From: Candidatus Planktophila vernalis
Lineage (GTDB): Bacteria; Actinomycetota; Actinomycetes; Nanopelagicales; Nanopelagicaceae
Reading direction: 5' to 3'
Assembly: GCF_002288185.1 (NCBI RefSeq)
Contig: NZ_CP016776.1
Coordinates: 124,001 to 188,000, forward strand
Length of the DNA: 64,000 bases
This document shows positions 28,426 through 43,550 of this stretch, piece by piece. The translations under genes and the position numbers were made by a program. Below the pieces are notes generated by a model, which was given only the letters and a program-made list of their open reading frames with translations, was not told the DNA's origin and ran no database searches. Position 1 is the first letter of the stretch; every line of letters starts with the position of its first letter.

Positions 28426-29490
28426 ATGAGTGCATTTAATGAGCGAATGGCGCCCCTGCGAGAGCTAATGAAGCAAAAAGGGCTTGAGTCAATAGTTCTA
28501 CGGCGCAATCCCAATCTGGCTTGGGCAATAGCAGGACGGGCTCATGTCCCAACAACTATTGATGCAGCGTGTTTTGATCTCATCATTACTCAGGACTCTG
28601 CCACTGCAATAACTAATGTCGTTGAGGCTCCGCGTTTGAAAGCAGAAGAGCTTCCAATTGAAGTAACAGTAAAGACGATTAAGTGGTCAGAAGGTCGCGA
28701 CCCACAACTTCCTACTGGTGCAAAAGTTGGAAGCGATCAACCTGGCGCAGATTGCATTGATTTGGGAACTGAGATTGAGATTATTCGAGCATCACTTATT
28801 GAGTCAGATGTAGTGCGCTATAAAGAGATTTGTTCAGATGCAGCGATTGCTTTAGGAAATGCAATGAAGCAGGTTGCAAACAGTGATCGCGAAATAGATG
28901 TTGCTGGATTGATTACACATGCACTATGGCAAGCAGATCTTGAGATTGCTTTCTTAGGAGTTGCTGGTCAAGAGCGTGTGCATAAATTTAGACACCCATT
29001 GCCAACGGATGCCGTAGTTGGGAATCGAGTATCTGCATCCATTTGCGCAAAGCGCAAAGGATTAATTGCCTCCGTTACTCGCATTGTTAGTTTTGAAGCT
29101 ATCTCAGATGCGATGGCAAAAGACTATGAAGCAATCTATAAAGTCGAAGCAGCGATGCTAGATGCAACAGTTGTGGGCAAGCCCTTTTCAGATCCCGTTA
29201 ATGCAGCAATTGCTGCTTATCCAGCCAATGGTTTTGATGGCGATGAATGGACTAAGCATCACCAGGGCGGTCCAACTGGATTTTTGCCTCGTGATTGGCC
29301 AGCTAATACGGGCAGTGCGCGTTTGATTGCCAATAATCAGCCGATCGCATGGAATCCAACAGGTAAAGGCTTTAAGGCCGAAGACACCATTCTTGCTACG
29401 AACTCAGGCGTGAAAATCCTCTCGATGGACCCTGATTGGCCCTCTTTTGAGGTCAATGGTCGGACCAGACCATTTTTGCTCACCCCTTAA
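28426..29490 (+). CDS. M24 peptidase-fold protein, probably without peptidase activity
   Basis: 354-residue protein with the creatinase-type N-domain and a C-terminal pita-bread domain like aminopeptidase P. The metal-binding residues are mostly missing: the usual DxG and SDITR segments read SASICAKRKG and IASVTRIV (residues 203-220), the first Glu motif reads AWNPTGKG (Asn310) and the last Glu motif reads VKILSMD. Only the histidine motif KHHQGGPTGF (278-279) remains. This degenerate HQGG-type subfamily occurs in other bacteria; its activity is unknown to me. It lies 10 bases behind the amino-acid ABC ATPase, suggesting co-transcription. Confidence 0.7.
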   Translation: MSAFNERMAPLRELMKQKGLESIVLRRNPNLAWAIAGRAHVPTTIDAACFDLIITQDSATAITNVVEAPRLKAEELPIEVTVKTIKWSEGRDPQLPTGAKVGSDQPGADCIDLGTEIEIIRASLIESDVVRYKEICSDAAIALGNAMKQVANSDREIDVAGLITHALWQADLEIAFLGVAGQERVHKFRHPLPTDAVVGNRVSASICAKRKGLIASVTRIVSFEAISDAMAKDYEAIYKVEAAMLDATVVGKPFSDPVNAAIAAYPANGFDGDEWTKHHQGGPTGFLPRDWPANTGSARLIANNQPIAWNPTGKGFKAEDTILATNSGVKILSMDPDWPSFEVNGRTRPFLLTP

Positions 29491-29550: not shown

Positions 29551-29590
29551 CTCCAGTGGCACGCTCTGCCAAGAGGTCTTACCACTGGAG
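29551..29590 (+). promoter_or_regulatory. Inverted repeat covering the isomerase ribosome-binding site
   Basis: CTCCAGTGG (29551-29559) and CCACTGGAG (29582-29590) are perfect 9-base complements separated by 22 bases. The right arm contains most of the Shine-Dalgarno sequence GGAGG (29587-29591) of the isomerase gene, so the folded RNA could hide it. The repeat also encloses the operator-like element at 29575. A possible -35 TTGACT lies at 29537. Confidence 0.5.
29571..29586. promoter_or_regulatory. Candidate FadR/GntR-family operator, site A
   Basis: The 16-mer AAGAGGTCTTACCACT has the core GGT-NNN-ACC typical of FadR-subfamily GntR operators. It differs at only two positions from site B at 38780 and lies just before the isomerase start. 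The GntR gene in the same operon is the likely partner. Confidence 0.6.
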
Positions 29591-29595
29591 GTTTA

Positions 29596-30996
29596 ATGAG
29601 CACCGTTGCTCTCGTCGCACTCGCGCGCCCAACCTTTGACCTGGCATGTGCTCAAGCAAATTTCGATAGCGCACGAGCATTACTCACCGAGCTTGGTGCC
29701 ACTGTGGTCGGGCCATCTGAGTTAGTGATGACAGTGGATGATGTTGCAGCAGTTCAACTTCCACACGCTGACCTACATATCTTGTTCATGGCCTCATTCT
29801 CAGATGCATCTCCTGCCGTTGAACTGCTTGGAAAAGTTAAAGGCCCTGTTCTTGGTTGGTCCATGCGCGAACCTGGCGCCGTTGGGGATCGCCTTAAATT
29901 GAATTCAATGTGTGGCGTGAACCTTGCAGCTCATGCATTAATGAACGCCGGACAATCTATTCGCCACATTCATGGCAATGCTGATGAACCACAAGTACGC
30001 GCTGCAATTAAAGATGCGCTCGCAGGAAAACTTCCTGAAGCATCAGCACCAAAAACCGTCACTGGTAAGTTTGGATCAGAGGCAGATGCACAAAAAGCTT
30101 TGGATTGGCTGCGTGGTAAAAAGATTGGCGCAGTTGGGGATGCACCTATTGGTTTCACACCATGCATTTATGATGCAAAGCAGATATTTTCAACATTTGG
30201 TTTAGATATTCGTCAAATCACGATTGATGATGCCTTTGGCAGAATTTCAGAAGTAAAGCAAGAAGCTCGCGAACTTGCCTATGCCAACGCTGTTGCTGCT
30301 CAGCCATCATTAGCTACAGTTAATGTGGAAGAAGCAAAGAAGGTTTATGGCGTAGAAGTCGCACTCGATGAGTGGTGCAAAGAAGAAGTTTTGGACGCAA
30401 TCGCAATTCGCTGCTGGCCAGAGTTTCCAACTGATTTAGGTGCCTGTATTTGTTCATCCCTGGGTCGACTTTCAGATCGTGGAACTGTCACCACATGTGA
30501 GCGCGATGTTTTAGGCGCAGTAACAATGATGGTCTGTGAATCACTGGGCTCAGATGAAAACTACTTGGTAGATATCGTTGATCTTGATGCATCACAAGGT
30601 TTAGTTCGTTTATGGCACTGTGGTTCAGCTGCAACAAAACTTGCAGCAGATCCAGTAAATGCCACCCAATCAACCCACTGCAATCGCAAATTAGGCGTTG
30701 CAGGTAATTTTCCGCTCAAGACCGGAGCAGTAACACTGTTTCGTATTGATCGGGATGTGGATCCGAGCAACCGCACGGGTCTACGCATGGTTGTGAGCCG
30801 AGGGGAATCAATCCCTGCTCCCAATCACTTCCAAGGCAATACAGCAACTGTTATCACTGAACCTGATGCAGCTGCTTTAGTGAATGGAATCGTCACTGGC
30901 GGATATCCGCACCACTTGGTCATTTCATGGATCGATGTGCGACCAGGTATTCGTCAACTGGCAAAAAAGTTAGGGATACCCCTCACAGAATGGTAA
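29596..30996 (+). CDS. L-fucose/L-arabinose isomerase-superfamily protein, candidate sulfoquinovose isomerase
   Basis: 466-residue sugar ketol-isomerase. Putative metal ligands, spaced as in AraA/FucI, are Glu276 in RCWPEFPTDLGACICSSLGR, Glu302 in CERDVLGAVTM, His341 in LWHCG and His439/440 in GYPHHLVI. The superfamily includes SqvD/SftI-type sulfoquinovose isomerases, which interconvert sulfoquinovose and sulfofructose. That role is inferred here from the neighbours: a sugar ABC transporter, a YihV-like kinase and a YihT-like aldolase in the same direction. It has a strong GGAGG site. An ordinary hexose or deoxyhexose substrate is not excluded. Confidence 0.75.
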   Translation: MSTVALVALARPTFDLACAQANFDSARALLTELGATVVGPSELVMTVDDVAAVQLPHADLHILFMASFSDASPAVELLGKVKGPVLGWSMREPGAVGDRLKLNSMCGVNLAAHALMNAGQSIRHIHGNADEPQVRAAIKDALAGKLPEASAPKTVTGKFGSEADAQKALDWLRGKKIGAVGDAPIGFTPCIYDAKQIFSTFGLDIRQITIDDAFGRISEVKQEARELAYANAVAAQPSLATVNVEEAKKVYGVEVALDEWCKEEVLDAIAIRCWPEFPTDLGACICSSLGRLSDRGTVTTCERDVLGAVTMMVCESLGSDENYLVDIVDLDASQGLVRLWHCGSAATKLAADPVNATQSTHCNRKLGVAGNFPLKTGAVTLFRIDRDVDPSNRTGLRMVVSRGESIPAPNHFQGNTATVITEPDAAALVNGIVTGGYPHHLVISWIDVRPGIRQLAKKLGIPLTEW

Positions 30997-31030: not shown

Positions 31031-32479
31031 ATGAAAACTAAAGGACTAAGTACCTTTGCTTCACTCCGTGCTGGTGTAGTTGCATTAGTTGCTACGGCAC
31101 TTGTAATTACTCCACTTGCGGTTGCACACGCTGCTGATGCTCCAACTTTCGGCAAGGCATGTACAACAGAAGGTGTAAGCACAGGACAAAAGACAACTTC
31201 ACTCATTTGCGCTGAAGGCTCAAGTGGAAAGCTAACTTGGCAGCGTGTGCGCCTTGGATCTTCAAAGGCAGCCCCAGTTGCATCTCTTACGCCACCAAAG
31301 GGAACTATTGAGTTCCATCACTGGCGTGGAGAAGACAAGGCAGTTCTACAGAGCATCATCGATAAGTTCGAAGCTAAACATCCAGGTACTAAGGTCAACC
31401 AGGTAATCATGACTTCTGGTGACTACGGTAACTTGGCGCTAACTAAGATCAGCGCAAATCCAAAGGCTGCTGCCTTTGTAACAATGCGCGGTGGACAGTT
31501 CGATAACTTCATGAAGGCTGGACTGTTGAAGGATCTAACTTCTCAGCGTTATGCTCAGCAGAACTTCATCCAAAGTGCTCTTACACCAGGAACTGTTGAT
31601 GGAAAGATCTACGGTCTTCCATACCAGTCACTATTTAACAACCCAATTTACAATGCAGAACTATTTACCAAGAATGGTTGGAAAGTTCCAACAACTTGGA
31701 CACAGACTCTTGCATTCTGTAAGACAGCTAAAGCAGCGGGATATATCCCATTTGCATGGCCAGGTGCTACCCGCGGTAACGCAGGTCAAATCCTCAATTC
31801 ATTCATGATGAACTCTGCTCCATATGCAACAGTTTTGAAGAATGCAACTGACATCGATAAGGGTCGTGCCGACCTGACAATCGATTGGTTCACAAATATT
31901 GCTAAGCAGTACAAGCAAATGGCTGATGCCGGTTGCTTCCCAGCCAATGCAACTGGATACACCGACACTGTCGCTCCAGCTGACTTTGCTGCTGGTAAGG
32001 CTGCTATTTATCCAACTGGAACATTTGGAATGAGCTCAGTAACAAAGCTCAATCCAGATATGAAGGGAAAGATGAAGATTATGGGTCTCATCACTACAGA
32101 TGCGAAGCCATACTATGAAGGAATCACAAACAACACCTTCATTCTTAGTGTGAATGCGAAGGCATCATCAACAGATCAGAAGATTGCCAATGCATTCATT
32201 TCATTCTTGGCTACTGCTCCAATTGCTCAGGAATACGCAGTTGGAACTTCACAGCACGTTTCAGTAATCAACGTTGATTACACAGCCAACGTTGATCTGT
32301 TAAATACATCAGACATCATGGGTAAGAAGCTTCTTCTAGCACCACGCTTCTTGTTCCTAAACCAAGGTGTAGTACGTGACAAGCTTGAAGATGCTTTGAT
32401 TGCAATTGTCGGTGGTGCAGATATCACCAAGACACTCGCAGACACATCAAAGATCATTAAGCAAGGCTTGGGTGCTTAA
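31031..32479 (+). CDS. Sugar ABC transporter substrate-binding protein with N-terminal Cys-pair domain
   Basis: 482-residue family 1 solute-binding protein. The signal peptide ends AHA-AD near residue 35 with no lipobox, unusual for a Gram-positive binding protein. Residues 36-72 form a small module with two cysteines (Cys44, Cys60) and the pattern GKLTW, seen in other exported actinobacterial proteins. The binding domain follows a linker (KGTIEFHHWRGEDKAVLQSI onwards). A ribosome site AAGGA precedes ATG 31031. It is followed by two permeases; the ATPase is absent, so a shared MsiK-type ATPase is expected. Ligand inferred: sulfoquinovose or its glycerol glycoside. Confidence 0.82.
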   Translation: MKTKGLSTFASLRAGVVALVATALVITPLAVAHAADAPTFGKACTTEGVSTGQKTTSLICAEGSSGKLTWQRVRLGSSKAAPVASLTPPKGTIEFHHWRGEDKAVLQSIIDKFEAKHPGTKVNQVIMTSGDYGNLALTKISANPKAAAFVTMRGGQFDNFMKAGLLKDLTSQRYAQQNFIQSALTPGTVDGKIYGLPYQSLFNNPIYNAELFTKNGWKVPTTWTQTLAFCKTAKAAGYIPFAWPGATRGNAGQILNSFMMNSAPYATVLKNATDIDKGRADLTIDWFTNIAKQYKQMADAGCFPANATGYTDTVAPADFAAGKAAIYPTGTFGMSSVTKLNPDMKGKMKIMGLITTDAKPYYEGITNNTFILSVNAKASSTDQKIANAFISFLATAPIAQEYAVGTSQHVSVINVDYTANVDLLNTSDIMGKKLLLAPRFLFLNQGVVRDKLEDALIAIVGGADITKTLADTSKIIKQGLGA

Positions 32480-32589: not shown

Positions 32590-33441
32590 TTGATGGCATT
32601 ACCCGCTTTTGCGATTTATTCCTTTTTGTATTTATACCCATCGATTTCTAATCTTTGGAATTCCACAAAACGATGGGATGGAGTTTTACCTCCAGAATTT
32701 ATAGGTGCACGAAACTTCACATATTTGGCAACTAATGATGATCTTTTCCTAAAAGTTGTCGCCAATAACTTTAAATTTGCTTTTGTAGTTGTCGTTCTAC
32801 AAACTTCCTTTTCTCTTTTGTTCGCAACATTTTTACTCAAGAATACGAAAACCACAATATTTCTTCGCGTTGTATATTTCTTTCCAACGATTCTTTCATC
32901 GGTATCTGTCGGCTTAATTTGGTTGTTTTTGTACAACCCTAATTACGGCCTAATTAACGCAACAGCAAAATCGATTGGAATAATGAATGAGCCAGGCATA
33001 AATTGGTTGGGAGACGGTCGATACGCCCTTTATGCAATCGCTATTACCCAAGTATGGTTCCACACCGGACAGATGGTTGTTATCTATGTTGCTGGTTTAC
33101 AGCAAATTCCAGCTGAGCTTTATGAAGCCGCGGAGGTAGATGGCGCTTCTCGTTGGCAACAATTTAAGAACATTACGTGGCCTATGGCATTACCGACAAC
33201 GGCAGTTGTTGTTGCATACACAACCATTCAAAGCTTTAGAGCATTTGATTTGGTCTATGCAATGACTCAGGGTGGACCAAACAATGCCTCAGATGTGCTC
33301 GTAACCTTGATCTACAATACGGCTTTTGCCAGTTATAAATTTGGTTACGCATCTGCCCAATCTGTCTTACTTGTGGTCACGGTTCTTTTGATTACTTGGC
33401 TTCAAAGACGCACTCTACGAGTGAATTATGGGGATAAATAA
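32590..33441 (+). CDS. Sugar ABC transporter permease (MalF/UgpA type), start uncertain
   Basis: 283 residues from TTG 32590, with six hydrophobic segments and the EAA loop LYEAAEVDGASRWQQFKNIT. The frame stays open upstream to 32461 and would encode a plausible cytoplasmic N-terminus ending HPKKKKAKFFDSKVLIL, yet it has no ATG, GTG or TTG. The only initiator-like codon there is ATT 32479, next to the binding-protein stop. Neither TTG 32590 nor ATG 32593 has a ribosome site, so the true start may be a rare codon upstream. The stop overlaps the next permease's ATG. Confidence 0.85.
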   Translation: MMALPAFAIYSFLYLYPSISNLWNSTKRWDGVLPPEFIGARNFTYLATNDDLFLKVVANNFKFAFVVVVLQTSFSLLFATFLLKNTKTTIFLRVVYFFPTILSSVSVGLIWLFLYNPNYGLINATAKSIGIMNEPGINWLGDGRYALYAIAITQVWFHTGQMVVIYVAGLQQIPAELYEAAEVDGASRWQQFKNITWPMALPTTAVVVAYTTIQSFRAFDLVYAMTQGGPNNASDVLVTLIYNTAFASYKFGYASAQSVLLVVTVLLITWLQRRTLRVNYGDK

Positions 33442-34256
33442 TGCTGTACAAATCGACTAAGAATTTCCTGTTAACAGCATTTGCATTTATCGTTCTCATT
33501 CCATGCTCGATTGTTGTTTTAGGTACATTCAAAACTGATGCTGAAATCTACTCAACTCCTTTGGCACTTCCAAAAAACTGGACACTAGATAATTTCCGAA
33601 CTCTCTTTGATTCTGGTGGTTTAATCACTCCATTTAAAAACAGTGTTATCGTCGCTGTTTTTTCTGTTTTCATCACCTTAATTTTGGCAAGCATGGCGGC
33701 TTATGCAATCGCAAGATCAATAACAATTTCAGGAAAAGTTCTCTTCTTCCTCTTTACACTTGGACTAGCTATTCCAGGGCAGGTAAATATCATCCCAATT
33801 TATGTACTTTTCGTAAAACTCAACCTCAATAATTCACTCACTGGTTTGGTGCTGGTCAACATTGCACTCACCCTTCCGATTTCAATTTTTATTCTAAGTG
33901 CTTTCTTTAAGGATTTATCCCGCGAAATGTTTGAGGCAGCAAGCATTGACGGGGCGGGTCATTGGCGAATTTTCCGTTCAATTGCACTTCCTCTTTGTCG
34001 CCCAGCAATGGGTGCAACGGGTATCTTCCTCTTTGTTATTTGTTGGAATGACTTGCTGTATCCATTAATGCTTATTAGCGAATTGAGTAAAAAGACACTT
34101 CCTTTGATTTTGATTGATTACAGAGGTGAGTACTTCTCAAGCTTTAGTATGTTGTTTACAGCGATTTTTGTGGCATCTATTCCAATGGTCGTGATGTACT
34201 TGTTCTTCCAGAAGTCATTTATAGCTGGCATAACTGCTGGTGCGGTGAAAGGTTAA
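33441..34256 (+). CDS. Sugar ABC transporter permease (MalG/UgpE type)
   Basis: 271-residue second permease with six hydrophobic segments and the EAA loop MFEAASIDGAGHWRIFRSIA. The N-terminal segment TAFAFIVLIPCSIVVLGTFK followed by TDAEIYSTPLALPKNWTLDN is typical of carbohydrate uptake CUT1 permeases. It overlaps the previous gene by one base and precedes the regulator by one base. Codon use (many TTT, ATT, AAA) looks more AT-rich than in the core genes. Confidence 0.9.
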   Translation: MLYKSTKNFLLTAFAFIVLIPCSIVVLGTFKTDAEIYSTPLALPKNWTLDNFRTLFDSGGLITPFKNSVIVAVFSVFITLILASMAAYAIARSITISGKVLFFLFTLGLAIPGQVNIIPIYVLFVKLNLNNSLTGLVLVNIALTLPISIFILSAFFKDLSREMFEAASIDGAGHWRIFRSIALPLCRPAMGATGIFLFVICWNDLLYPLMLISELSKKTLPLILIDYRGEYFSSFSMLFTAIFVASIPMVVMYLFFQKSFIAGITAGAVKG

Positions 34257-34257
34257 A

Positions 34258-34971
34258 ATGAGCGCAATAACACCATTAGCCCCGCAGCGTGCAGCCCGAA
34301 TTGCTACCCAACTTGTAGAACTCATTGATCTTCAAAAATTAAATCCTGGTGACCGACTGCCTCCTGAGCGACAATTAGCTGACTTACTAGAGGTTAGCCG
34401 CCCAAGTTTGCGTGAAGCGTTACATATTTTGCAGGCGCAAGGGCTTGTGCAGATAAAGCATGGTCAAGGCACTTTTGTTCAAGAGCCAATTGTTGCGCAA
34501 GAGCTTCGTGCTTCAATGATGACTAAAACGCATGGACTAAATGAGCTTTTTGATGCACGTGAAGTTCTTGAAGTCCCAGCCTCTAAGTGGGCCGCTGAAA
34601 AAGCCACAAAAGAAGATATTCGATTACTTCGCACTACGCTAAACCAAATTGATACCGTGACAGCTTCCCACCCAATAGATTTTGATCAACTTCAGCTCTT
34701 AGATGCAAAATTCCATCTAACTATTGTCGGAGTAGCTGGCAATAGATTCATTAATCAAACCCTCAATGTTTTACAAGACGTAATGAGAATGTCTATGGAG
34801 ACGACTCTTCGTTTACCTGGCCGTTCTGAAATCTCTCGAAGTGAGCACAGTGAAATATTGACGGCAATTGAAAATGGTGATGGAGAACTTGCCTCAAAAT
34901 TAACCTTAAAGCACATTACTGGGGCTCGGAAAACTGCAGTTGCAGATGCTAAAGCGAAAGAAAATAATTGA
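34258..34971 (+). CDS. FadR-subfamily GntR transcriptional regulator
   Basis: 237 residues. The N-terminal winged helix-turn-helix is GDRLPPERQLADLLEVSRPS, LREALHILQAQGLVQIKHGQ, GTFV (residues 31-75). The C-terminal all-helical FCD domain has metal-site residues in LLDAKFHLTIVG, SEHSEIL and LKHITG. It sits between transporter and kinase genes and probably controls them. The GGT-NNN-ACC repeats before the isomerase, between the Gfo/Idh and suyA genes and before the second transporter match what this subfamily binds. The ligand may be a sulfosugar or sulfolactate, by inference only. Confidence 0.88.
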   Translation: MSAITPLAPQRAARIATQLVELIDLQKLNPGDRLPPERQLADLLEVSRPSLREALHILQAQGLVQIKHGQGTFVQEPIVAQELRASMMTKTHGLNELFDAREVLEVPASKWAAEKATKEDIRLLRTTLNQIDTVTASHPIDFDQLQLLDAKFHLTIVGVAGNRFINQTLNVLQDVMRMSMETTLRLPGRSEISRSEHSEILTAIENGDGELASKLTLKHITGARKTAVADAKAKENN

Positions 34972-35861
34972 GCACTGTTCAAGCCGTTTGTGTTGGTGTA
35001 ATAACAATAGACACTGTTGCATTAGTAGATAAATATCCAAGTGAAGATGAAAGAGTCATAGCACGTGACATTACACGTGGCGGCGGTGGCCCTGCTGCAG
35101 TTGCTGCAGTTGCGCTAAGCCGTCAAGGAATCAAAACTGCAATCATTGGAACCATCGGGGATGATGCTGATGGGAAAGAAGTACTTCGAATTTTTGAAAA
35201 AGAAGGCGTCGACACCACAGGTATTTCTATTGGATCCTCACCGACTGCGGGAAGCGTAATTGTTTCTTCATTAGAAAGAAGTTCACGCGCTATAAATACA
35301 CGTCAACCCGTAAACCAAGCACCTATAAATTCAGCTGCAAAAAATTTGGCATCTAATGCACAATGGGTACACGTAGACCATGTTGGAATAAATCGCTTGG
35401 CAGAGTTGGGCATATCCAGGGGCAGTGGCCCACTCATCTCATTTGATGCTGGATATGGTGTTGAAGATTTTGATCCTAAAATTGTGGATTTATTTGTGCC
35501 CACTGATCGGCAAATGGCACTTCGATACCCAGGTGTTGATTTAGCAGTTGCGTTGGAAAACGATTCCTTAAAGGGTGGGAATACCGTTGTTGCAACGCAA
35601 GGATCCGCAGGTAGTTCAGGATATTCATCTGAAACTGGATTAGTCACTTCATCTGGTTTTAAGGTAGAAGTAAAAAGCACTTTGGGTGCAGGGGATGTAT
35701 TTCATGGCTCTTTAGTCGCTCAAATCATCCATGGGTTTTCTCTTCAAGAAGCGCTGCATCGAGCAAATGCAGTTGCAGCTCTTTCATGTCGTGGTTTAGA
35801 CGGCCAATCAATGATTCCAACAACATCTGAACTCAATGCATTTCTGGAGGCAAACAAATGA
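34968..35861 (+). CDS. PfkB-family sugar kinase, candidate sulfofructose kinase
   Basis: 297-residue ribokinase-fold kinase. The N-terminal glycine motif is RGGGGPAAVAAVAL (38-51), and the catalytic anion-hole motif TLGAGDVFHG has base Asp243. Compared from memory with E. coli YihV (sulfofructose kinase), the overall pattern matches, including ARDITRGGGGPAA, INxxxP (Asn110) and VVATQGSAG; two positions of the reported sulfonate pocket appear changed (Lys to Arg29, Arg to another residue near 139). It would make sulfofructose 1-phosphate from ATP. TTG start overlaps the GntR stop (TTGA); the end overlaps the aldolase start (ATGA). Confidence 0.8.
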   Translation: MSTVQAVCVGVITIDTVALVDKYPSEDERVIARDITRGGGGPAAVAAVALSRQGIKTAIIGTIGDDADGKEVLRIFEKEGVDTTGISIGSSPTAGSVIVSSLERSSRAINTRQPVNQAPINSAAKNLASNAQWVHVDHVGINRLAELGISRGSGPLISFDAGYGVEDFDPKIVDLFVPTDRQMALRYPGVDLAVALENDSLKGGNTVVATQGSAGSSGYSSETGLVTSSGFKVEVKSTLGAGDVFHGSLVAQIIHGFSLQEALHRANAVAALSCRGLDGQSMIPTTSELNAFLEANK

Positions 35862-36739
35862 GGGCACCACTAACTAAATTGGCAAGACCATCTGGCGCAC
35901 TTGCAATGGTTGCAGTTGATCAGCGTGAGGCGTTACGCGGAATGTTTGCAGTCCACCAATCCACTCCAGTGCCAGATTCTCAACTCACGCAGTTTAAAGT
36001 AGATGTTGCACGAGAGTTGTCTCCTTTTGCATCGGCATTATTGGTGGATCAAGAATTCGGCATAGATGAAATTATCAAGCAGAAAGCTCTTAAGGGCAGT
36101 TGTGGACTAATCGCTGCAGCAGATCTATTAGTCGGACCTGCAGGCGGCGCAGCAACAGATACTGCAATTGATCCAGATGTAGATCCAATTCGTATGCGTG
36201 ATATCGGAAGTGTGGGATTAAAGTTTTTGATTTTATGGCGAAATGACGAATCACCAGATTCACGCGCAAAACTTGTTGAAGACTTTAATGAGCTATGCAA
36301 GATTTCTGGATTACCCTCAATTATTGAGATTATTGTGAAACCACCAACTGATACCTCAAGAACCTTTAATCGTGAAGAAGAATTGATTATTGCGGCAAGA
36401 GAGGCTGCGAGTTGGAAACCAGATCTTTATAAGGCTGAAGTTCCATTCCACGGTGAAGGCGATTTGAATCTAATTACTAAAAATGCTGAAAGAATTTCTG
36501 AAGCAATCGGATCACCCTGGGTTGTGCTTTCAAATGGAGTGAAGCAACCGTTCTTTAATAATGCTGTCAAAGCCTGCGCAATGGGTGGTGCTAGTGGTTT
36601 TCTTGCAGGACGGGCAGTATGGGCGGACATTGTTGGTGCAGCAGATATTCCAAAGGCCTTGCGTGAAGTTTCAATTCCTCGCCTCGAGCAATTAGCTGAA
36701 ATTGTGGATACCCATGCAAAGCCTTGGGCTAGCTGGTAG
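35858..36739 (+). CDS. Sulfofructosephosphate aldolase-like class I aldolase (YihT family)
   Basis: 293-residue class I aldolase closely resembling E. coli YihT and related to LacD. Shared blocks are AMVAVDQREALRGMF, LLVDQEFG, ILWRNDES, VEDFNELC and GASGFLAGRAVWADIVG. The Schiff-base lysine is Lys192 in DLYKAEVPFHGEG; Arg252 of GRAVW corresponds to an arginine implicated in sulfonate binding in YihT (from memory). Expected reaction: sulfofructose 1-phosphate to DHAP plus sulfolactaldehyde. It is the last gene of this arm; the convergent nucleoside-hydrolase gene ends on the very next base. A tagatose-1,6-bisphosphate aldolase role is the main alternative. Confidence 0.83.
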   Translation: MRAPLTKLARPSGALAMVAVDQREALRGMFAVHQSTPVPDSQLTQFKVDVARELSPFASALLVDQEFGIDEIIKQKALKGSCGLIAAADLLVGPAGGAATDTAIDPDVDPIRMRDIGSVGLKFLILWRNDESPDSRAKLVEDFNELCKISGLPSIIEIIVKPPTDTSRTFNREEELIIAAREAASWKPDLYKAEVPFHGEGDLNLITKNAERISEAIGSPWVVLSNGVKQPFFNNAVKACAMGGASGFLAGRAVWADIVGAADIPKALREVSIPRLEQLAEIVDTHAKPWASW

Positions 36740-37600
36740 CTAATTTACTTTCGCAATGAGGGAAATCATGGCGCTAACAGCCTCTAATGGCTTTGAGGGG
36801 GAGACTCTTTTTACATTTCCATCTTCATTTAAGCGCCAATCGCTCTTTCCGTCTTCACTAATTTGAACAGATCCGATTTCCGAGAAATCAAAAAATTCTG
36901 GCTCTAGCATCGCTAATACGGCGATTGGATCATGAGGTGTCGTCCAATCTTGATGACGTGGCTGAATCCAATTCAGGATTTCAGTGTGCAAAATTGGGCC
37001 GAGTTTCCCAGAGTTTTTAATCTGTTCTATTTCATCCTTCTTAATTATCGTTTTTTGTGAGGAGGGTAAATCCAAAATTGTTATGGAAATTTCTGACTCA
37101 AGAACAATCTTTGCTGCATCAACATCGCATTTAAAGTTGTGCTCAATCTTCTCCTTGGTGAAATCACCTCCCATTATCCAAAGGTGTTTAACATTTTTTG
37201 CAAAGTTTGGTGCTTGCATAATTGCAGTGGCGATATTTGAAAGAGGGCCAATAGCTATTACTTCAATTTCTCCTGGATTTTGATTTACTGCTTCAACGAG
37301 AAATTCAACCGCTTTTCTATCTTCAAGTGCGTACTGATTCAAATTTGAGAAGGCTTTTCCTTCAGATCCTGTACTCCATACCTTGCGACCAGATAAAGGT
37401 GTTTCGACTCCGGCGAAGACTGGAATTGATTTATTGGCGATGTGGCACAAATGATGGGCTATTCGTGCTCTTAGTTTGGTGTCACCATAAACAGTAGTTA
37501 TACCGAGTAAGTTCACTGATTCAGAACCCAACACCGTTGCTAGAGCTAAAGCATCATCTACATCGCTACCGATATCAGTATCGAGAATGATTGTGTGCAT
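36740..37600 (-). CDS. Inosine-uridine nucleoside hydrolase-family protein
   Basis: 286-residue IUNH-fold hydrolase: the N-terminal LDTDIGSDVDDALALA provides the Asp cluster that binds Ca2+ and ribose, and LWIMGGDF and TTPHDPIAVLAML are further family segments. Members cleave N-glycosidic bonds of ribonucleosides. Why it sits between sulfosugar genes is unclear. ATG 37600 overlaps the stop of the Gfo/Idh gene (TAATG), so the two are coupled. AGA, ATA and AAA codons appear more often than in neighbouring genes. Confidence 0.85.
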   Translation of the reverse strand: MHTIILDTDIGSDVDDALALATVLGSESVNLLGITTVYGDTKLRARIAHHLCHIANKSIPVFAGVETPLSGRKVWSTGSEGKAFSNLNQYALEDRKAVEFLVEAVNQNPGEIEVIAIGPLSNIATAIMQAPNFAKNVKHLWIMGGDFTKEKIEHNFKCDVDAAKIVLESEISITILDLPSSQKTIIKKDEIEQIKNSGKLGPILHTEILNWIQPRHQDWTTPHDPIAVLAMLEPEFFDFSEIGSVQISEDGKSDWRLNEDGNVKRVSPSKPLEAVSAMISLIAKVN

Positions 37601-38703
37601 TAACCCCACAGCTCTTTAATTTCAACAACTCTGCCCTCTTTTATGCTCTTATGAGCAGCAAGGCCTGTAACCACGCTTGTTACACCATCTTTAAGCGTTA
37701 CTTCCGCTGGAGTTGAGTTCAAAATCGCATCACGGAACTTAGTGTGTTCAATATAAGAAGCACCGTAGTGGTGGCCCATGTATTTCACATCATAGTTATG
37801 AACAATCTTCTGCTCACTCCCGCTTCCACGACTAGCTCCTTGCTTCCAACCAGAGAGCTTTCCAATAGTTTCACGACGTGAAGCGCGGACAACTTGAGAA
37901 GGTAAGAAGGATTCAATCTTTCCTTCATCGCCAACTATTGTGAGGATCTCTTTATCAAATGAGCCTTCGCCAAACATACAAAGATCTAACATTCCGCGAG
38001 CACCGTTTGCATACTCAAGAACTACATAGGCGTTATCCAACATATCTGCTTGCTTACCATCGTACTTTTCATCCAAATGGTTAACGCTCTGGCCACCGGA
38101 AGCAAAAATTCGAACAGGTTGTTCGCCGACAACAAGGTCCATCAAATTGAAGTAGTGACAACATTTTTCAACCAAAGTTCCGCCAGTGCGTTCGGCAAAA
38201 CGATTCCAGTTATCCACTTTTGGATAGAACGGTTCGCGGTGCTCTCGAATGGTTACTTGGTGAATTTTTCCGGCTTCACCTTCTTTTGCACGGGCAATAG
38301 CTTCAGCAACTGGGGGCATGAAACGGTATTCAAGACCCATCCATGTCATTGCACTTCGCTTCTCATCCCAGGCCAAAATAGATTTCAAATCTTCAACTGT
38401 TGTTGCAAGAGGCTTTTCGACAAAGACAGCAATGTCACTTGCAAGGCAATCCTTAAGTACGGCTGCATGTGTGTCATTGGGCGTTGCAACGATGATTGCA
38501 TCGACTAGACCAGAATCGATCAGGGCTCGGTGATCGCTGAATACTTTGGCACCCGGGGCCATAGCAAGGGCGGCCTCTTGAGATGGCTTATGGGGATCGC
38601 TGATAGCGCTAACTACCGCCCCGCCCATGACCTTGATGTTCTCAATATGCTCACGGCCCATGCTGCCTGCACCGATAATTCCGTACCGAAGCTCGCTTTT
38701 CAT
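37600..38703 (-). CDS. Gfo/Idh/MocA-family NAD-dependent protein, candidate sulfoquinovosidase
   Basis: 367 residues with an N-terminal Rossmann domain (YGIIGAGSMGREH, 7-19), the family EKP motif (96-98) and a C-terminal substrate domain with NWNRFAERTGGTLVEKCCHY (165-184). Members are usually sugar or inositol dehydrogenases, but the fold also includes NAD-using glycosidases, one family of which releases sulfoquinovose from its glycosides. No classical GH31 sulfoquinovosidase is in the window, so this is the best local candidate. A sugar dehydrogenase is equally consistent with the sequence. No ribosome site precedes ATG 38703, so a leaderless message is possible. Confidence 0.65.
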   Translation of the reverse strand: MKSELRYGIIGAGSMGREHIENIKVMGGAVVSAISDPHKPSQEAALAMAPGAKVFSDHRALIDSGLVDAIIVATPNDTHAAVLKDCLASDIAVFVEKPLATTVEDLKSILAWDEKRSAMTWMGLEYRFMPPVAEAIARAKEGEAGKIHQVTIREHREPFYPKVDNWNRFAERTGGTLVEKCCHYFNLMDLVVGEQPVRIFASGGQSVNHLDEKYDGKQADMLDNAYVVLEYANGARGMLDLCMFGEGSFDKEILTIVGDEGKIESFLPSQVVRASRRETIGKLSGWKQGASRGSGSEQKIVHNYDVKYMGHHYGASYIEHTKFRDAILNSTPAEVTLKDGVTSVVTGLAAHKSIKEGRVVEIKELWG

Positions 38704-38706
38704 GGC

Positions 38707-38722
38707 AACAGGTTAGACCACT
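38707..38722. promoter_or_regulatory. Candidate FadR/GntR-family operator, site C
   Basis: AACAGGTTAGACCACT with core GGT-TAG-ACC (38711-38719), placed 4 bases upstream of the Gfo/Idh start codon on the reverse strand, where it would overlap a promoter if the message is leaderless. It matches sites A and B in flanks (AA-A before, ACT after the core). Confidence 0.6.
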
Positions 38723-38779: not shown

Positions 38780-38795
38780 AAGAGGTCAGACCACT
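38780..38795. promoter_or_regulatory. Candidate FadR/GntR-family operator, site B
   Basis: AAGAGGTCAGACCACT with core GGT-CAG-ACC (38784-38792), 33 bases before the suyA start. It agrees with site A in 14 of 16 positions. Sites B and C lie 73 bases apart in the 125-base divergent region, a spacing that would allow control of both directions. Confidence 0.62.
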
Positions 38796-38828: not shown

Positions 38829-39131
38829 ATGGCAATAACACCACCGCAGTTCCTGCTTCACCATGATGGCGACAACGTTGCTGTTGCGATGACAGATCTG
38901 CAACCTGGAACCCTTCAAGGGCGTTCGGTAAAGGAAGGAACTGAGAGCACCGCGGTGTTAAATCACGCGATTCCTCTCGGACACAAATTTGCGCTCGCAG
39001 ATCTTGCTGAGGGTGACTCAATTATTAAGTACGGCATCAAGGTCGGACTTGCATCAGCTGCCATTAAAAAGGGCGATTACATTCACACACACAACATGAG
39101 GAGTTATCGATGGGAAGCAAGCCGCGCTTAA
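38829..39131 (+). CDS. suyA: (R)-sulfolactate sulfo-lyase small subunit
   Basis: 100-residue SAF-domain protein like the N-terminal part of altronate dehydratase UxaA: LLHHDGDNVAVAMTDLQPG, IPLGHKFALADLAEGDSIIK, KYGIKVGLASAAIKKGD and YIHTHN. As a separate small subunit beside a 388-residue large subunit it matches SuyA, which with SuyB splits sulfolactate into pyruvate and sulfite. A GAGAGG ribosome site lies about 11 bases before ATG 38829. It overlaps suyB by 22 bases. Split altronate or galactarate dehydratase is the main alternative, but the next genes are those of sulfolactate metabolism. Confidence 0.85.
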   Translation: MAITPPQFLLHHDGDNVAVAMTDLQPGTLQGRSVKEGTESTAVLNHAIPLGHKFALADLAEGDSIIKYGIKVGLASAAIKKGDYIHTHNMRSYRWEASRA

Positions 39132-40276
39132 CTGGATACCGCCGCGAAAACGGCACTATGGGTATCCGCAATCACGTCATTATTTTGCCTCTCGATGACC
39201 TTTCAAATGCAGCTGCAGAAGCTGTAGCAAAAGTTATTCCAGGCACACTAGCTCTACCTCACGCATTTGGTCGTCTGCAGTTTGGTGAAGATCTTCAGTT
39301 AACTTTTGACACACTTATTGGAACTGGCGTTAACGCAAACGTTGCAGCAGTCGTTGTTATTGGTATTGAGCCAAAATGGACACAACGTGTTGCAGATGGA
39401 ATTGCGAAGACTGGAAAGCCAGTTGCAGCATTTTCAATTGAAGGCAAGGGTGATCTACAAGTTATTCAAGAAGCTAGCCGCGTTGCAGCAATGTTCTTAC
39501 AAGATGCATCTGGTCTTGTTCGCACTGAAGCTGAAATGGGCGACATGATCATGTCAATCAAGTGCGGAGAGTCAGACACAACTTCTGGTCTTGGCTCTTG
39601 CCCAACAACATCTGAGGCAGTTGACCGTTGGGTTGAAGCTGGTGGAACTGTTTTCTTTGGAGAAACATCAGAGCTAACTGGTGGCGAGCACCTCATTGCA
39701 GAGCGTTGCATTGATGCTGCTACACGTGACCTCTTCCAGCTCACATATGACAACTACATCAAGGTTATTGAAGCAACCGGTGCAAACCTTCTTGGCTCAC
39801 AGCCAACACAAGGAAATATTGCTGGTGGCCTTACTACTATTGAAGAGAAGGCACTTGGAAACATTGCAAAAACTGGCTCTGTGCCAGTTGTGGGTGTTCT
39901 CAAGCCCGCCGAAATGCCAAGTGCATCAAAGCCTGGTTTGTACTTCATGGATTCATCATCTGCTGCAGCAGAGTGCGTAACTCTGATGGCTGCAGGTGGC
40001 GCTGTAATCCACTTGTTCCCAACAGGACAAGGAAACGTTATTGGTAACCCAATCGTTCCGGTATTGAAGTTAACTGCAAATATCAAGACTGCAAAGTCAA
40101 TGTCTGAGCACATCGATCTTGATGTTTCTGGAGTCCTTCGCTACGAATACGACATGACTAAGGCTGGCGACATGATGATGGATGTCATTTATGACACTGT
40201 TAATGGTCGTCTATGCAAGGCTGAAGTTATGGGCCACCGCGAATTCACATTCACAAAGTTGTATATCTCTGCATAA
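39110..40276 (+). CDS. suyB: (R)-sulfolactate sulfo-lyase large subunit
   Basis: 388-residue UxaA-family C-terminal enzyme that carries the Fe-dependent active site. Typical segments: RRENGTMGIRNHVIILP, ALPHAFGRLQFGED, SIKCGESDTTSGLGSCPTTS and FFGETSELTGGEHLIAERC. Its length fits SuyB rather than full-length altronate dehydratases, which are about 490 residues in one chain. A GAGGAG ribosome site lies in suyA. Product sulfite would be handled by the exporter two genes on. The stop overlaps the slcC ATG by one base. Confidence 0.87.
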   Translation: MGSKPRLTGYRRENGTMGIRNHVIILPLDDLSNAAAEAVAKVIPGTLALPHAFGRLQFGEDLQLTFDTLIGTGVNANVAAVVVIGIEPKWTQRVADGIAKTGKPVAAFSIEGKGDLQVIQEASRVAAMFLQDASGLVRTEAEMGDMIMSIKCGESDTTSGLGSCPTTSEAVDRWVEAGGTVFFGETSELTGGEHLIAERCIDAATRDLFQLTYDNYIKVIEATGANLLGSQPTQGNIAGGLTTIEEKALGNIAKTGSVPVVGVLKPAEMPSASKPGLYFMDSSSAAAECVTLMAAGGAVIHLFPTGQGNVIGNPIVPVLKLTANIKTAKSMSEHIDLDVSGVLRYEYDMTKAGDMMMDVIYDTVNGRLCKAEVMGHREFTFTKLYISA

Positions 40277-41214
40277 TGATTCTCATCTCTGAAGATGTAT
40301 GGGGAACTCCCTTCCAAAAGCTGGAAGGGAGTTTTCCCATTATTCGAAATGATGATTTGTGGAATGACCCTGAAAAACTCAAAGCTTCTCTTAAAGATGC
40401 AACAGCACTAGTAGTTCGTAATCGCACAAAGGTAACTGCTGAAATCATCGCAGCTGCTCCAAAACTAAAGGTGATTGCTAGAGCAGGTGTTGGATTAGAC
40501 AATATTGATATTAAAGCTGCAGATGCTGCAGGTGTAGTTGTGGTTGCAGGACTTGGTGCAAACGCTGTTAGCGTCGGCGAGTTAACTCTTGGCTTAGCAC
40601 TTGCATTACTTCGAAACATTCCAGGTCATGATGTTGCAACTCGTGATGGGGGTTGGGTGCGAACACCTGGCCGTGAACTCTCAGGTCTGACATGGGGTTT
40701 ATTGGGTTGCGGTGCTACAGGAGTTGCAACAGCAAAACTGATTCAAGGTTTTAACTGCAACGTTCTTGGATATGACCCATATGCAAAAAACCTTGCTGGA
40801 ATTGAATTAACTACTTTTGAAGATGTGTTAAAGCGCAGCGATGTAGTCAGTATTCATATGCCTTCAACACCTGAGACAAATGGAACAATCAACGCTCAGA
40901 CCATTGGATTGATGAAGTCCGATGCAATCATCGTAAATGTTGGTCGTGGGGAAGTTATTAATGAAGCAGATCTCATCGCTGCCTTAAAAGCAAAAACTAT
41001 TGCTGGGGCAGCACTTGATGTTCGTGCCCAAGAGCCACCTAGTAAAGGTGAAATGGAAGCTATTTCTAACTTGATCCTGACTCCACACGTGGCTGGCATT
41101 ACCAAGGAAAGTCAGCTTCGAATCAATCAGATTTTGACCTCTAACATTGAATTAGTTCTAAACTCAAAGCCAGCTACACATGCTGTTGGTGCATTAAAGG
41201 AAAGTAGTAACTAA
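40276..41214 (+). CDS. slcC: D-isomer-type 2-hydroxyacid dehydrogenase, candidate (S)-sulfolactate dehydrogenase
   Basis: 312-residue NAD-dependent dehydrogenase of the phosphoglycerate dehydrogenase family: ARAGVGLDNIDIKAADAAGV, a glycine motif LLGCGATGVA, catalytic Arg in NVGRGEVINEADL, Glu in DVRAQEPP and His in LTPHVAGIT. Beside suyAB and comC it matches SlcC, which oxidises (S)-sulfolactate to sulfopyruvate. With ComC it would convert the S form to the R form used by SuyAB. The gene overlaps both neighbours by one base, so it is tightly coupled. A general glyoxylate/hydroxypyruvate reductase cannot be ruled out. Confidence 0.8.
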   Translation: MILISEDVWGTPFQKLEGSFPIIRNDDLWNDPEKLKASLKDATALVVRNRTKVTAEIIAAAPKLKVIARAGVGLDNIDIKAADAAGVVVVAGLGANAVSVGELTLGLALALLRNIPGHDVATRDGGWVRTPGRELSGLTWGLLGCGATGVATAKLIQGFNCNVLGYDPYAKNLAGIELTTFEDVLKRSDVVSIHMPSTPETNGTINAQTIGLMKSDAIIVNVGRGEVINEADLIAALKAKTIAGAALDVRAQEPPSKGEMEAISNLILTPHVAGITKESQLRINQILTSNIELVLNSKPATHAVGALKESSN

Positions 41215-42221
41215 TGCCTACGTTAAACGTTGGTTCTGCAATTGCTACGGCTACATCTTTATTGGAAGCAGCTGGCGTTCCCAAAGAAGAAGCAGTAACA
41301 ACTGCTCGTTGTATTGTTGCAAGTGATCGATGGGGAATTGGCAGCCATGGATTGATGCGCCTTCCTTTTTATCTCTCTCGTTTACAAGCAGGTGGAATCA
41401 ATCCAAAGGCAGAGTTAAAGATTGTTACAGATTTGCCAAGCTTGGTTGTCTTTGATGGTGATGATGGATTGGGCCATTGGCAGTTACAAAAAGCATCTGA
41501 AATTGCATCTGAGCGCGCAATGGTCAATGGAATAGCTGCCGTTGGTGTTGGGCGTTCTAATCACTGCGGTGCTCTAGGTATTTATGTCTGGCCAATGATT
41601 AACCGTGGTCTAGTTGGTATTGCATTTAGTACAGGTCCTGCAGTTATGCCACCGTGGGGTGGTAATCAACCATTGCTTTCAACTTCTCCCATTGCTGCCG
41701 GTATTCCAACCAATCCACCCACTGTTGTTGATTTAGCAACGAGTGCAGTTGCTCGCGGAAAGATTCAGGCAAAAGCACAAGCAGGTGCAGAACTTGAACC
41801 TGGGTGGGCTTTTACAAAAGATGGTGCGCCAACAACAGATGCCAAGGAAGCCTTAGCTGGAATGCTTGCACCTTTAGGTGGCGTTAAAGGTTATGCGATT
41901 GCAGTTCTTGTTGAATCGTTAACTGGAATGTTGATTGGGCCAACTTTGGCTAAGAATATTCCTGACATGTTTGCAGCTAGCCAGGATGCACTACCTCAAC
42001 AGATTTCACATTTTGTCATTGCAATTGATGCTTCAAAGTTATCTGTCGATGGAAGCAACGATAGAACTAAAGAGTTTGCTCAAGAAGTTAATGCGGCCGG
42101 AGGCCGGCTTCCAGGTTCTAATCGTGTGAACCCTGAGAATCTCAATAACGGTGATGAAATAACAATTACTGATCAAGTCTCAGAGCAGTTGAGTACCTGG
42201 TCCACAAAGCTCGGGATCTAA
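41214..42221 (+). CDS. comC: Malate/L-lactate-type dehydrogenase, candidate (R)-sulfolactate dehydrogenase
   Basis: 335-residue member of the Ldh_2 (malate/L-sulfolactate dehydrogenase) family, which includes ComC. Signature pieces: SDRWGIGSHGLMRLPFYLSR, GVGRSNHCGALGIYVWPMI, ATSAVARGKIQ and GGVKGYAIAVLVESLTGML. It would reduce sulfopyruvate to (R)-sulfolactate. It lies directly between slcC and the exporter gene, with one-base overlap before and no gap after. Confidence 0.83.
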   Translation: MPTLNVGSAIATATSLLEAAGVPKEEAVTTARCIVASDRWGIGSHGLMRLPFYLSRLQAGGINPKAELKIVTDLPSLVVFDGDDGLGHWQLQKASEIASERAMVNGIAAVGVGRSNHCGALGIYVWPMINRGLVGIAFSTGPAVMPPWGGNQPLLSTSPIAAGIPTNPPTVVDLATSAVARGKIQAKAQAGAELEPGWAFTKDGAPTTDAKEALAGMLAPLGGVKGYAIAVLVESLTGMLIGPTLAKNIPDMFAASQDALPQQISHFVIAIDASKLSVDGSNDRTKEFAQEVNAAGGRLPGSNRVNPENLNNGDEITITDQVSEQLSTWSTKLGI

Positions 42222-43391: not shown

Positions 43392-43550
43392 CCAAAAAAC
43401 GGCAATTTACGCGTAAATGTAATCAATTCGTTACCTCTTAGGCCTATCTGTTCAATGGTATGACCTCTAGGTTGAGCGTGTTACCAGGCCTTGACCCCTT
43501 CAAAACCTGATGACCTTTCGAAAGGCTCAACTCTAGAGAAAAGGAAAACA
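43392..43550. promoter_or_regulatory. Upstream region of the second sugar transporter with operator-like palindromes
   Basis: 159 bases containing two perfect palindromes, ATTTACGCGTAAAT (43405-43418) and CCTTTCGAAAGG (43514-43525), plus a GGT-ATG-ACC element (43457-43465, TGGTATGACCT) like the FadR-type sites A-C. The first two resemble dimeric repressor sites. The ribosome site AAGGA is at 43541. No sure promoter hexamers. Confidence 0.5.

Follow-up and report, generated by a model that had tools for sequence, protein, structure and literature searches.

How might an actinobacterium that lacks a classical sulfoquinovosidase of glycoside hydrolase family GH31 obtain the plant sulfur-sugar sulfoquinovose (SQ) from its glycosides? 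The question is raised by the window analyzed here, a stretch of 64,000 nucleotides (positions 124001–188000) from the single-contig genome of Candidatus Planktophila vernalis (1,364,004 bases, 99.95% complete), in which a gene at 37600–38703 on the minus strand lies within an SQ-degradation cluster; no GH31 domain was found in this genome (the control search gave matches in 6 of 14 genomes). The product, 367 amino acids long from an ATG start, contains the Pfam GFO_IDH_MocA N- and C-terminal domains and is very probably an NAD+-dependent sulfoquinovosidase of family GH188, an SqgA homologue of the Tyr160 subgroup, that would cleave sulfoquinovosyl glycerol or other SQ glycosides. A preliminary description, made from the letters of the DNA, had proposed an NAD-dependent sulfoquinovosidase in a setting without the classical GH31 enzyme; it was right about GH31 and about the family, from which, together with the evidence below, we infer the substrate and the chemistry.

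The Candidatus Planktophila lineage is abundant in fresh water, and the relatives of the host are small actinobacteria, including records named Candidatus Planktophila. If the assignment is true, the enzyme would decide whether such bacteria can use sulfolipid-bound SQ, the common form of a sugar whose production is put at approximately 10 billion tons per year (PMC10755693), and the cluster would carry SQ to sulfite and pyruvate within one cell. Within the library searched, no paper combined sulfoquinovose with Nanopelagicales or with Planktophila, and, judged by titles, nothing related was found for sulfoquinovose with freshwater and acI or for sulfolactate with acI and Actinobacteria.

Family, fold, and active site of the protein

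The best sequence matches in the PDB were 8qc2 (3.7e-102), 8qc3 (4.7e-101), and 8zn9 (6.2e-87), all of which are GH188 sulfoquinovosidases, and the fourth distinct sequence, the dehydrogenase 3ezy, reached only 5.1e-30. An AlphaFold2 model built from 57 aligned sequences (predicted local distance difference test score, pLDDT, 91.5; predicted template modeling score, pTM, 0.90) predicts a Rossmann N-terminal domain and an alpha/beta C-terminal domain arranged as in SqgA. When this model was compared with known structures using VIA-align 2, six GH188 entries ranked first (Z 46.6 to 45.1, root-mean-square deviation 1.7–1.9 over 344–348 residues), the entries after them, with levoglucosan and inositol dehydrogenases among them (Z 34–38), scored Z 38.1 or less, and Foldseek likewise ranked GH188 chains first. 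A phylogenetic tree, a check that the preliminary description had suggested, separated the GH188 rows, the window protein among them, from 14 rows of iolG-type and other Gfo proteins (support 98/99), which favors the sulfoquinovosidase reading over an inositol dehydrogenase. The tree comprised 76 rows after 19 close relatives had been removed from 95, with GH109 sequences not among them; because the program warned that long branches meet and three outgroup rows (L140, L141, and L146) kept untrimmed N-terminal extensions, only the split between GH188 and the rest is relied upon.

Among characterized systems, the closest are the SqgA enzymes of Arthrobacter sp. U41 and Flavobacterium sp. K172 (8qc2, 8qc3, 8qc5, 8qc6, and 8qc8), which share 48% identity with the window protein (Z 46.0–46.6), as well as its catalytic residues and sulfonate-binding Arg and Lys, and whose family is likewise found in SQ clusters without GH31 (PMC10755693). 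The marine sulfoquinovosidase 8zn9 is 43–44% identical (Z 45.1) but has Leu at position 170 and groups with a Ruegeria protein. The GH109 alpha-N-acetylgalactosaminidase 6t2b is likewise a glycosidase that depends on NAD and shares the fold (Z 34.6), but shows only 17% identity and stands at rank 44, among dehydrogenases, in the structural comparison. The two Gfo paralogues in the same genome are only 27–28% identical to the GH188 protein, and its counterparts in close small-actinobacterial relatives are 96% (IMCC19121 and SCGC AAA044-N04), 86% (Planktophila lacus), and, as a rounded value, 85% (IMCC26103) identical.

The active site of SqgA comprises Lys107, Tyr136, Glu189, His193, and His321, which serve the sugar hydroxyls and catalysis, and a sulfonate pocket to which Arg166 and Lys172 contribute, together with Leu170 through its backbone amide (PMC10755693). 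Alignment places the window equivalents at K97, Y126, E179, H183, and H312 for the former and at R156 and K162 for the sulfonate, with Y160 at the position of Leu170. Across 78 GH188 rows (the window protein, three solved chains, and 74 loci, left after identical copies and pieces below 340 amino acids had been removed from 96 loci proteins), the equivalents of these seven side chains are invariant, both sulfonate-binding residues included, and the two dehydrogenase reference sequences lack the Tyr136 and Lys172 equivalents. The column of Leu170 holds Tyr in 51 of the 78 rows, Leu in 26, and Phe in one. Since the contact made by Leu170 is through its backbone amide, Tyr there does not exclude membership in GH188; Leu occurs at this position in 96.0% of the family, and members with Tyr are still counted as GH188 (PMC11465081). 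The motif GGTLVEKCCHY lies exactly where the preliminary description had put it, at residues 174–184 (EKCCHYF begins at 179), and, because the active-site Glu and His of GGTLVEKCCH do not vary among the 78 rows, it marks GH188 as a whole, the branch of the window protein being marked instead, in the alignment, by REPFYPK at residues 156–162. The structural report prints Glu163 for the residue that replaces Tyr226 of GH109 (PMC10755693), and the offset that fits its other residue numbers makes that glutamate 164 (window E154). For scale, FlSqgA acts on SQ-glycerol with a kcat of 0.24 per s and a KM of 3.7 mM (PMC10755693).

Co-occurrence with sulfoquinovose-degradation genes

The distribution of the gene was followed in 201 genomes of the family, drawn evenly from a larger group and including the window genome (cut-offs 1e-60 for GH188, 1e-100 for suyB, and 1e-60 for the aldolase). 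GH188 was found in 47 of these genomes, suyB in 46, the aldolase in 29, and GH31 in 20. The suyB gene was present in 44 of the 47 GH188 carriers and in 2 of the 154 non-carriers (Fisher 3e-38, kinship ignored), the exceptions being G086, G158, and G199, with GH188 and without suyB, and G062 and G163, with the reverse; the aldolase was present in 29 of the 47 carriers and in none of the 154 others (Fisher 5e-23, again ignoring kinship). The preliminary description had also pointed to reports of such enzymes in clusters that lack the classical sulfoquinovosidase; this holds for the window genome itself, whereas mutual exclusion across the family is unsupported, as GH31 and GH188 overlap in 3 of the 201 genomes (3 of the 47 carriers, p 0.42), so that avoidance is not shown and a strict GH188/GH31 exclusion is disfavored. 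Five GH31 stretches were taken from the 20 GH31 genomes, and in the four from GH188-free genomes no suyB, kinase, aldolase, or GH188 match was found (the contig L150 among them spans just 10.4 kb). In the wider phylum, homologues at 1e-50 or better were present in 24 of 396 genomes, the window genome counted.

The Tyr160 branch and competing explanations

The window protein is, by its sequence, a further member of a GH188 subgroup that has already been described: two groups in which Tyr replaces Leu170 were described, Y160 in Actinobacteria bacterium IMCC26103 and Y158 in Clavibacter sp., with an altered dimer interface predicted for them (PMC11465081). The window protein has its Tyr at exactly this residue 160, and the IMCC26103 copy (L047) is 85% identical to it and lies in a matching cluster; the window copy differs in that a nucleoside hydrolase gene comes after it and overlaps it, a gene that was not found in L047. 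Among the 51 Tyr rows the residue is numbered 160 in 37 and 158 in eight, and these eight belong to the nine rows of g17, a divergent genus in which the genes are ordered differently; the number varies with the start codon chosen. One locus (L041) falls outside the Tyr group in the tree, whereby the Tyr state needs two changes.

Judging from the alignment, this branch differs from other GH188 proteins at a set of positions and not at a single one, an observation that is new here. Against 30 other GH188 rows, the 51 Tyr rows carry E157, which adjoins the sulfonate-binding Arg in sequence, in 49 (0 of the 30 others), Y160 in all 51 (0 of 30), P161 in all 51 (3 of 30), and Y184, which adjoins the catalytic His183, in all 51 (2 of 30); N186 occurs in 49 of the 51 and Y313, which adjoins His312, in 47, and an inserted W286 is present in all 51 and faces a gap in all 30 others. 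The published SqgA enzymes thus differ from the window protein in having Leu170 where it has Tyr160, and in the E157, P161, Y184, and Y313 positions and the inserted stretch with W286. A shortened loop opposite residue 170, compared with P278–T293 of 8QC2, has been described for the Tyr subgroup (PMC11465081), and the window protein shares it. This loop is 12–14 residues long in the three solved rows and 0–1 in the other 75 of the 78; since it is short in the Leu and Phe types as well, by this alignment it is not a mark of the Tyr group, which is likewise new. Both the set of positions and the loop result are subject to the alignment used and to a sample that is mostly actinobacterial.

Several points weigh against assigning sulfoquinovosidase activity to the window protein. 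Tyr160 replaces the Leu170 contact, the Tyr rows lie apart from the clade to which all three solved enzymes belong, and the study describing the Tyr subgroup gives models without assays (PMC11465081); a literature search turned up no other assay of this subgroup. With Tyr at the Leu170 position and several neighboring positions changed, activity or specificity could have changed, and the set of branch-specific changes is a concrete reason to assay the published subgroup. The ABC sugar-binding protein of the cluster resembles the SQ-glycerol binder SmoF only distantly (7nbz, 1.7e-4; best match 4g68, 2.3e-23), a search with the aldehyde dehydrogenases of the genome as queries found none of their relatives at 1e-15 near the cluster in 52 sequences (the window plus 51 loci, of which many are short contigs), and 18 of the 47 carriers, namely 17 of g17 and G035, have no aldolase. 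Finally, the co-occurrence is uncorrected for the kinship of the genomes.

Part of this evidence would be met by an enzyme that has the GH188 fold and serves this pathway but differs in specificity, acting on another sulfonated glycoside or aglycone, or on one anomer only, through a sulfonate pocket remodeled as a set. Such an enzyme would suit the near fixation of E157, Y160, P161, Y184, Y313, and W286 in the 51 Tyr rows, which differ at these positions from the 30 others, as well as the altered dimer interface predicted for the subgroup (PMC11465081), but neither the catalytic residues nor the two sulfonate side chains vary, the downstream genes fit SQ itself, and the Leu170 contact, being a backbone amide (PMC10755693), is offered by Tyr too; we therefore consider altered specificity unlikely. 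The absence of an aldolase from 18 carriers, which leaves their carbon–carbon cleavage step unexplained, could instead suggest an SQ dehydrogenase, in which the fold oxidizes free SQ for a sulfo-Entner–Doudoroff-like route and cleaves no glycoside, as Gfo-fold proteins commonly oxidize sugars. That the window itself encodes a predicted kinase and aldolase pair of the sulfo-Embden–Meyerhof–Parnas (sulfo-EMP) type, and that His321, near the glycosidic C1 in GH188, is kept, makes this explanation very improbable.

An ordinary Gfo/Idh/MocA sugar or inositol dehydrogenase, placed in the cluster by chance and forming NADH from a free sugar, would belong to the same fold superfamily, and both the match to the inositol 2-dehydrogenase model TIGR04380 (E 3.5e-42) and the dehydrogenases among the structural neighbors at Z 34–38 are what it would produce. 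The TIGR04380 score, however, is 144.4 bits against a curated cut-off of 355, the protein stands apart from the dehydrogenases in the tree, its GH188 active site is complete save for Leu170, and it is carried together with suyB, which leaves this explanation with hardly any credibility.

Gene cluster, operator-like sites, and companion genes

At lower window coordinates than the GH188 gene, a run of genes on the plus strand begins with a pita-bread (M24-fold) protein (28426–29490) and a fucose-isomerase-like protein (29596–30996), followed by an ABC sugar-binding protein (31031–32479), two ABC permeases (32590–34256; individually 32590–33441 and 33441–34256), a GntR/FCD regulator (34258–34971), a predicted sulfofructose kinase (34968–35861; best PDB match 7ag6 at 7.5e-28, ribokinase at 9.4e-18), and a predicted YihT-type sulfofructosephosphate aldolase (35858–36739; 7ag1 at 3.4e-75, tagatose-bisphosphate aldolases at 1.3e-18 or weaker). 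The fucose-isomerase-like protein is a candidate SQ–sulfofructose isomerase on the basis of its position and of a Pfam match of 23.4 bits, below the cut-off of 29.3; in a PDB search it matched only HLA-type chains at 0.003 or worse, which were taken as chance. An accessory nucleoside hydrolase-like gene (IU_nuc_hydro; 36740–37609, minus strand) begins with GTG and shares 10 bases with the 3' end of the GH188 gene. On the other side of a 125-bp gap, and divergent from the GH188 gene, a second run on the plus strand comprises suyA-like and suyB-like genes for the small and large subunits of an (R)-sulfolactate sulfo-lyase (38829–39125, with a SAF domain, and 39110–40276, with galactarate/altronate dehydratase domains and a PDB match to galactarate dehydratase only, at 2.7e-29), an slcC-like 2-hydroxyacid dehydrogenase (40276–41214), a comC-like sulfolactate dehydrogenase (41214–42221; 204.8 bits to the L-sulfolactate dehydrogenase model NF040650, below its cut-off of 500), and a YeiH-type membrane protein (PF03601; 42222–43211), which we take to be a possible sulfite exporter. 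The names suyA, suyB, slcC, and comC are likewise our assumption, made from domain matches, the logic of the cluster, and background knowledge.

These genes suggest a route in which the adjacent ABC transporter would take up sulfoquinovosyl glycerol or other SQ glycosides and the GH188 protein would act through transient C3 oxidation by bound NAD+ and loss of the C2 proton; the aglycone would then be eliminated, water would add, and re-reduction would follow, so that NAD+ would be a catalyst and would not be consumed. Released SQ could then pass through the isomerase, sulfofructose kinase, and YihT-type aldolase of a sulfo-EMP pathway to dihydroxyacetone phosphate and sulfolactaldehyde, the latter presumably being oxidized to sulfolactate by a dehydrogenase encoded elsewhere. 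The SlcC/ComC pair would convert sulfolactate to the (R) form, SuyAB would cleave (R)-sulfolactate to pyruvate and sulfite, and YeiH may export the sulfite. Ten PF00171 matches lie elsewhere in the genome, and a sulfolactaldehyde dehydrogenase is listed for the IMCC26103 cluster (PMC11465081). Compared with SqgA, the window cluster continues to genes for sulfolactate cleavage. YihV and YihT are gene names of the E. coli type sulfo-EMP cluster. Its kinase and aldolase are related to those of the window, which differs in having GH188 in place of the GH31 enzyme YihQ, a fucose-isomerase-like protein in place of YihS, and SuyAB-like genes in addition.

Where their contigs extend far enough, related loci repeat the gene order around the GH188 gene; exceptions include L012 and L016, in which the aldolase side differs, and L041. 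In g17 the order is instead M24-fold gene, operator-like site, GH188, isomerase, transporter, GntR, kinase, suyA, suyB, slcC, and comC, with no aldolase match in the long loci; L041 has a similar gene set, also without the aldolase. Seven g17 loci (L117–L123) and L041 accordingly combine GH188 in a cluster with genes for an isomerase, a kinase, and SuyAB-like proteins but have no recognizable sulfofructosephosphate aldolase. The nucleoside hydrolase gene was seen in 11 of the 36 loci that show both flanking genes and was not found in the other 25; its proteins in relatives are 56–91% identical to the window copy, and by coordinate comparison the 10-base overlap with the GH188 gene is kept in 10 of the 11 loci (L009 differs).

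The preliminary description had the GH188 gene facing suyA across a region with two shared operators, and the 125-bp gap does hold two operator-like sites. The proximal one (ACAGGTTAGACCACT, 38708–38722), directly upstream of the GH188 gene, has one mismatch to the pattern AGWGGTNNNACCWCT, and the distal one (AGAGGTCAGACCACT, 38781–38795), 73 bp away towards suyA, is exact. A further exact site (AGAGGTCTTACCACT, 29572–29586) lies upstream of the isomerase gene and a weaker one with one mismatch (AATGGTATGACCTCT, 43454–43468) upstream of a second binding-protein gene; none of the four is assigned a strand. With up to one mismatch the pattern occurs at these four sites in the window, each in a gap of the cluster, against an expectation of 0.36, and none of 100 shuffles gave as many; as the pattern was derived from the same sites, its recurrence in relatives serves as the independent test. 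The distal site was found in 34 and the proximal site in 31 of the 35 related loci, out of 44, that hold upstream DNA (nine hold none), and their spacing is 73 bp in 29 of 31 relatives and 65 bp in two. In g17, with its different gene order, the palindrome stands directly upstream of the GH188 gene in all seven loci (four exact, three with one mismatch), while L041 has no operator-like site. We infer that the GntR/FCD protein binds these sites and would control the cluster from the shared operators.

Genome-wide, AGWGGTNNNACCWCT at up to two mismatches is not enriched (207 matches against 240 for the reversed control), and the pattern TGGTCTGACC at two mismatches is not enriched in the window (42 against 44.6 expected). 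Among the matches listed (100 of the 207, reaching approximately 0.69 Mb of 1.36 Mb), there are only two exact copies, both in the cluster, and two of eight one-mismatch copies lie there. A one-mismatch site at 352549 was judged to be chance because it lies within a coding part, inside the aldehyde dehydrogenase match at 351190–352578. The 73-bp spacing corresponds to approximately seven turns of DNA, and looping between the two operator-like sites is conceivable.

The M24-fold gene travels with the cluster, which is new here: it was found in 46 of the 201 family genomes at 1e-40, 44 of which are GH188 carriers, in two gene orders, and it goes unmentioned in the text that describes the Tyr subgroup (PMC11465081). 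Its model (pLDDT 91.2) predicts a pita-bread fold, and the best 50 structural matches listed (Z 31.4 to 26.5) include prolidases, creatinase, ectoine hydrolase, and the dimethylsulfoniopropionate lyase DddP. Reading its aligned motif against the M24 motif, we take the metal-binding residues of M24 peptidases to be replaced, and the protein is probably without these ligands. A bolder proposal, which we consider doubtful, is that the Tyr158/Tyr160 lineage constitutes a second functional GH188 type with a rebuilt pocket (E157, Y160, P161, Y184, Y313, and W286) that draws on a different pool of sulfoquinovosides, and that the co-travelling M24-fold protein, seemingly devoid of peptidase metal ligands, performs an undescribed step of the pathway.

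Beyond chromosomes, 22 plasmid records matched the GH188 protein at 1e-40. On pZZM402 of Zymomonas mobilis ZM4 (L149, 128–8633) the homologue adjoins a class II aldolase, an aldose epimerase, a fucose-isomerase-like gene, an MFS transporter, and a TonB receptor, a gene group that is possibly an SQ cluster. On pYA7-1a of Arthrobacter sp. YA7-1 (L148), a plasmid typed as conjugative, it adjoins an ABC sugar transporter, a galactonate dehydratase, and an SDR gene.

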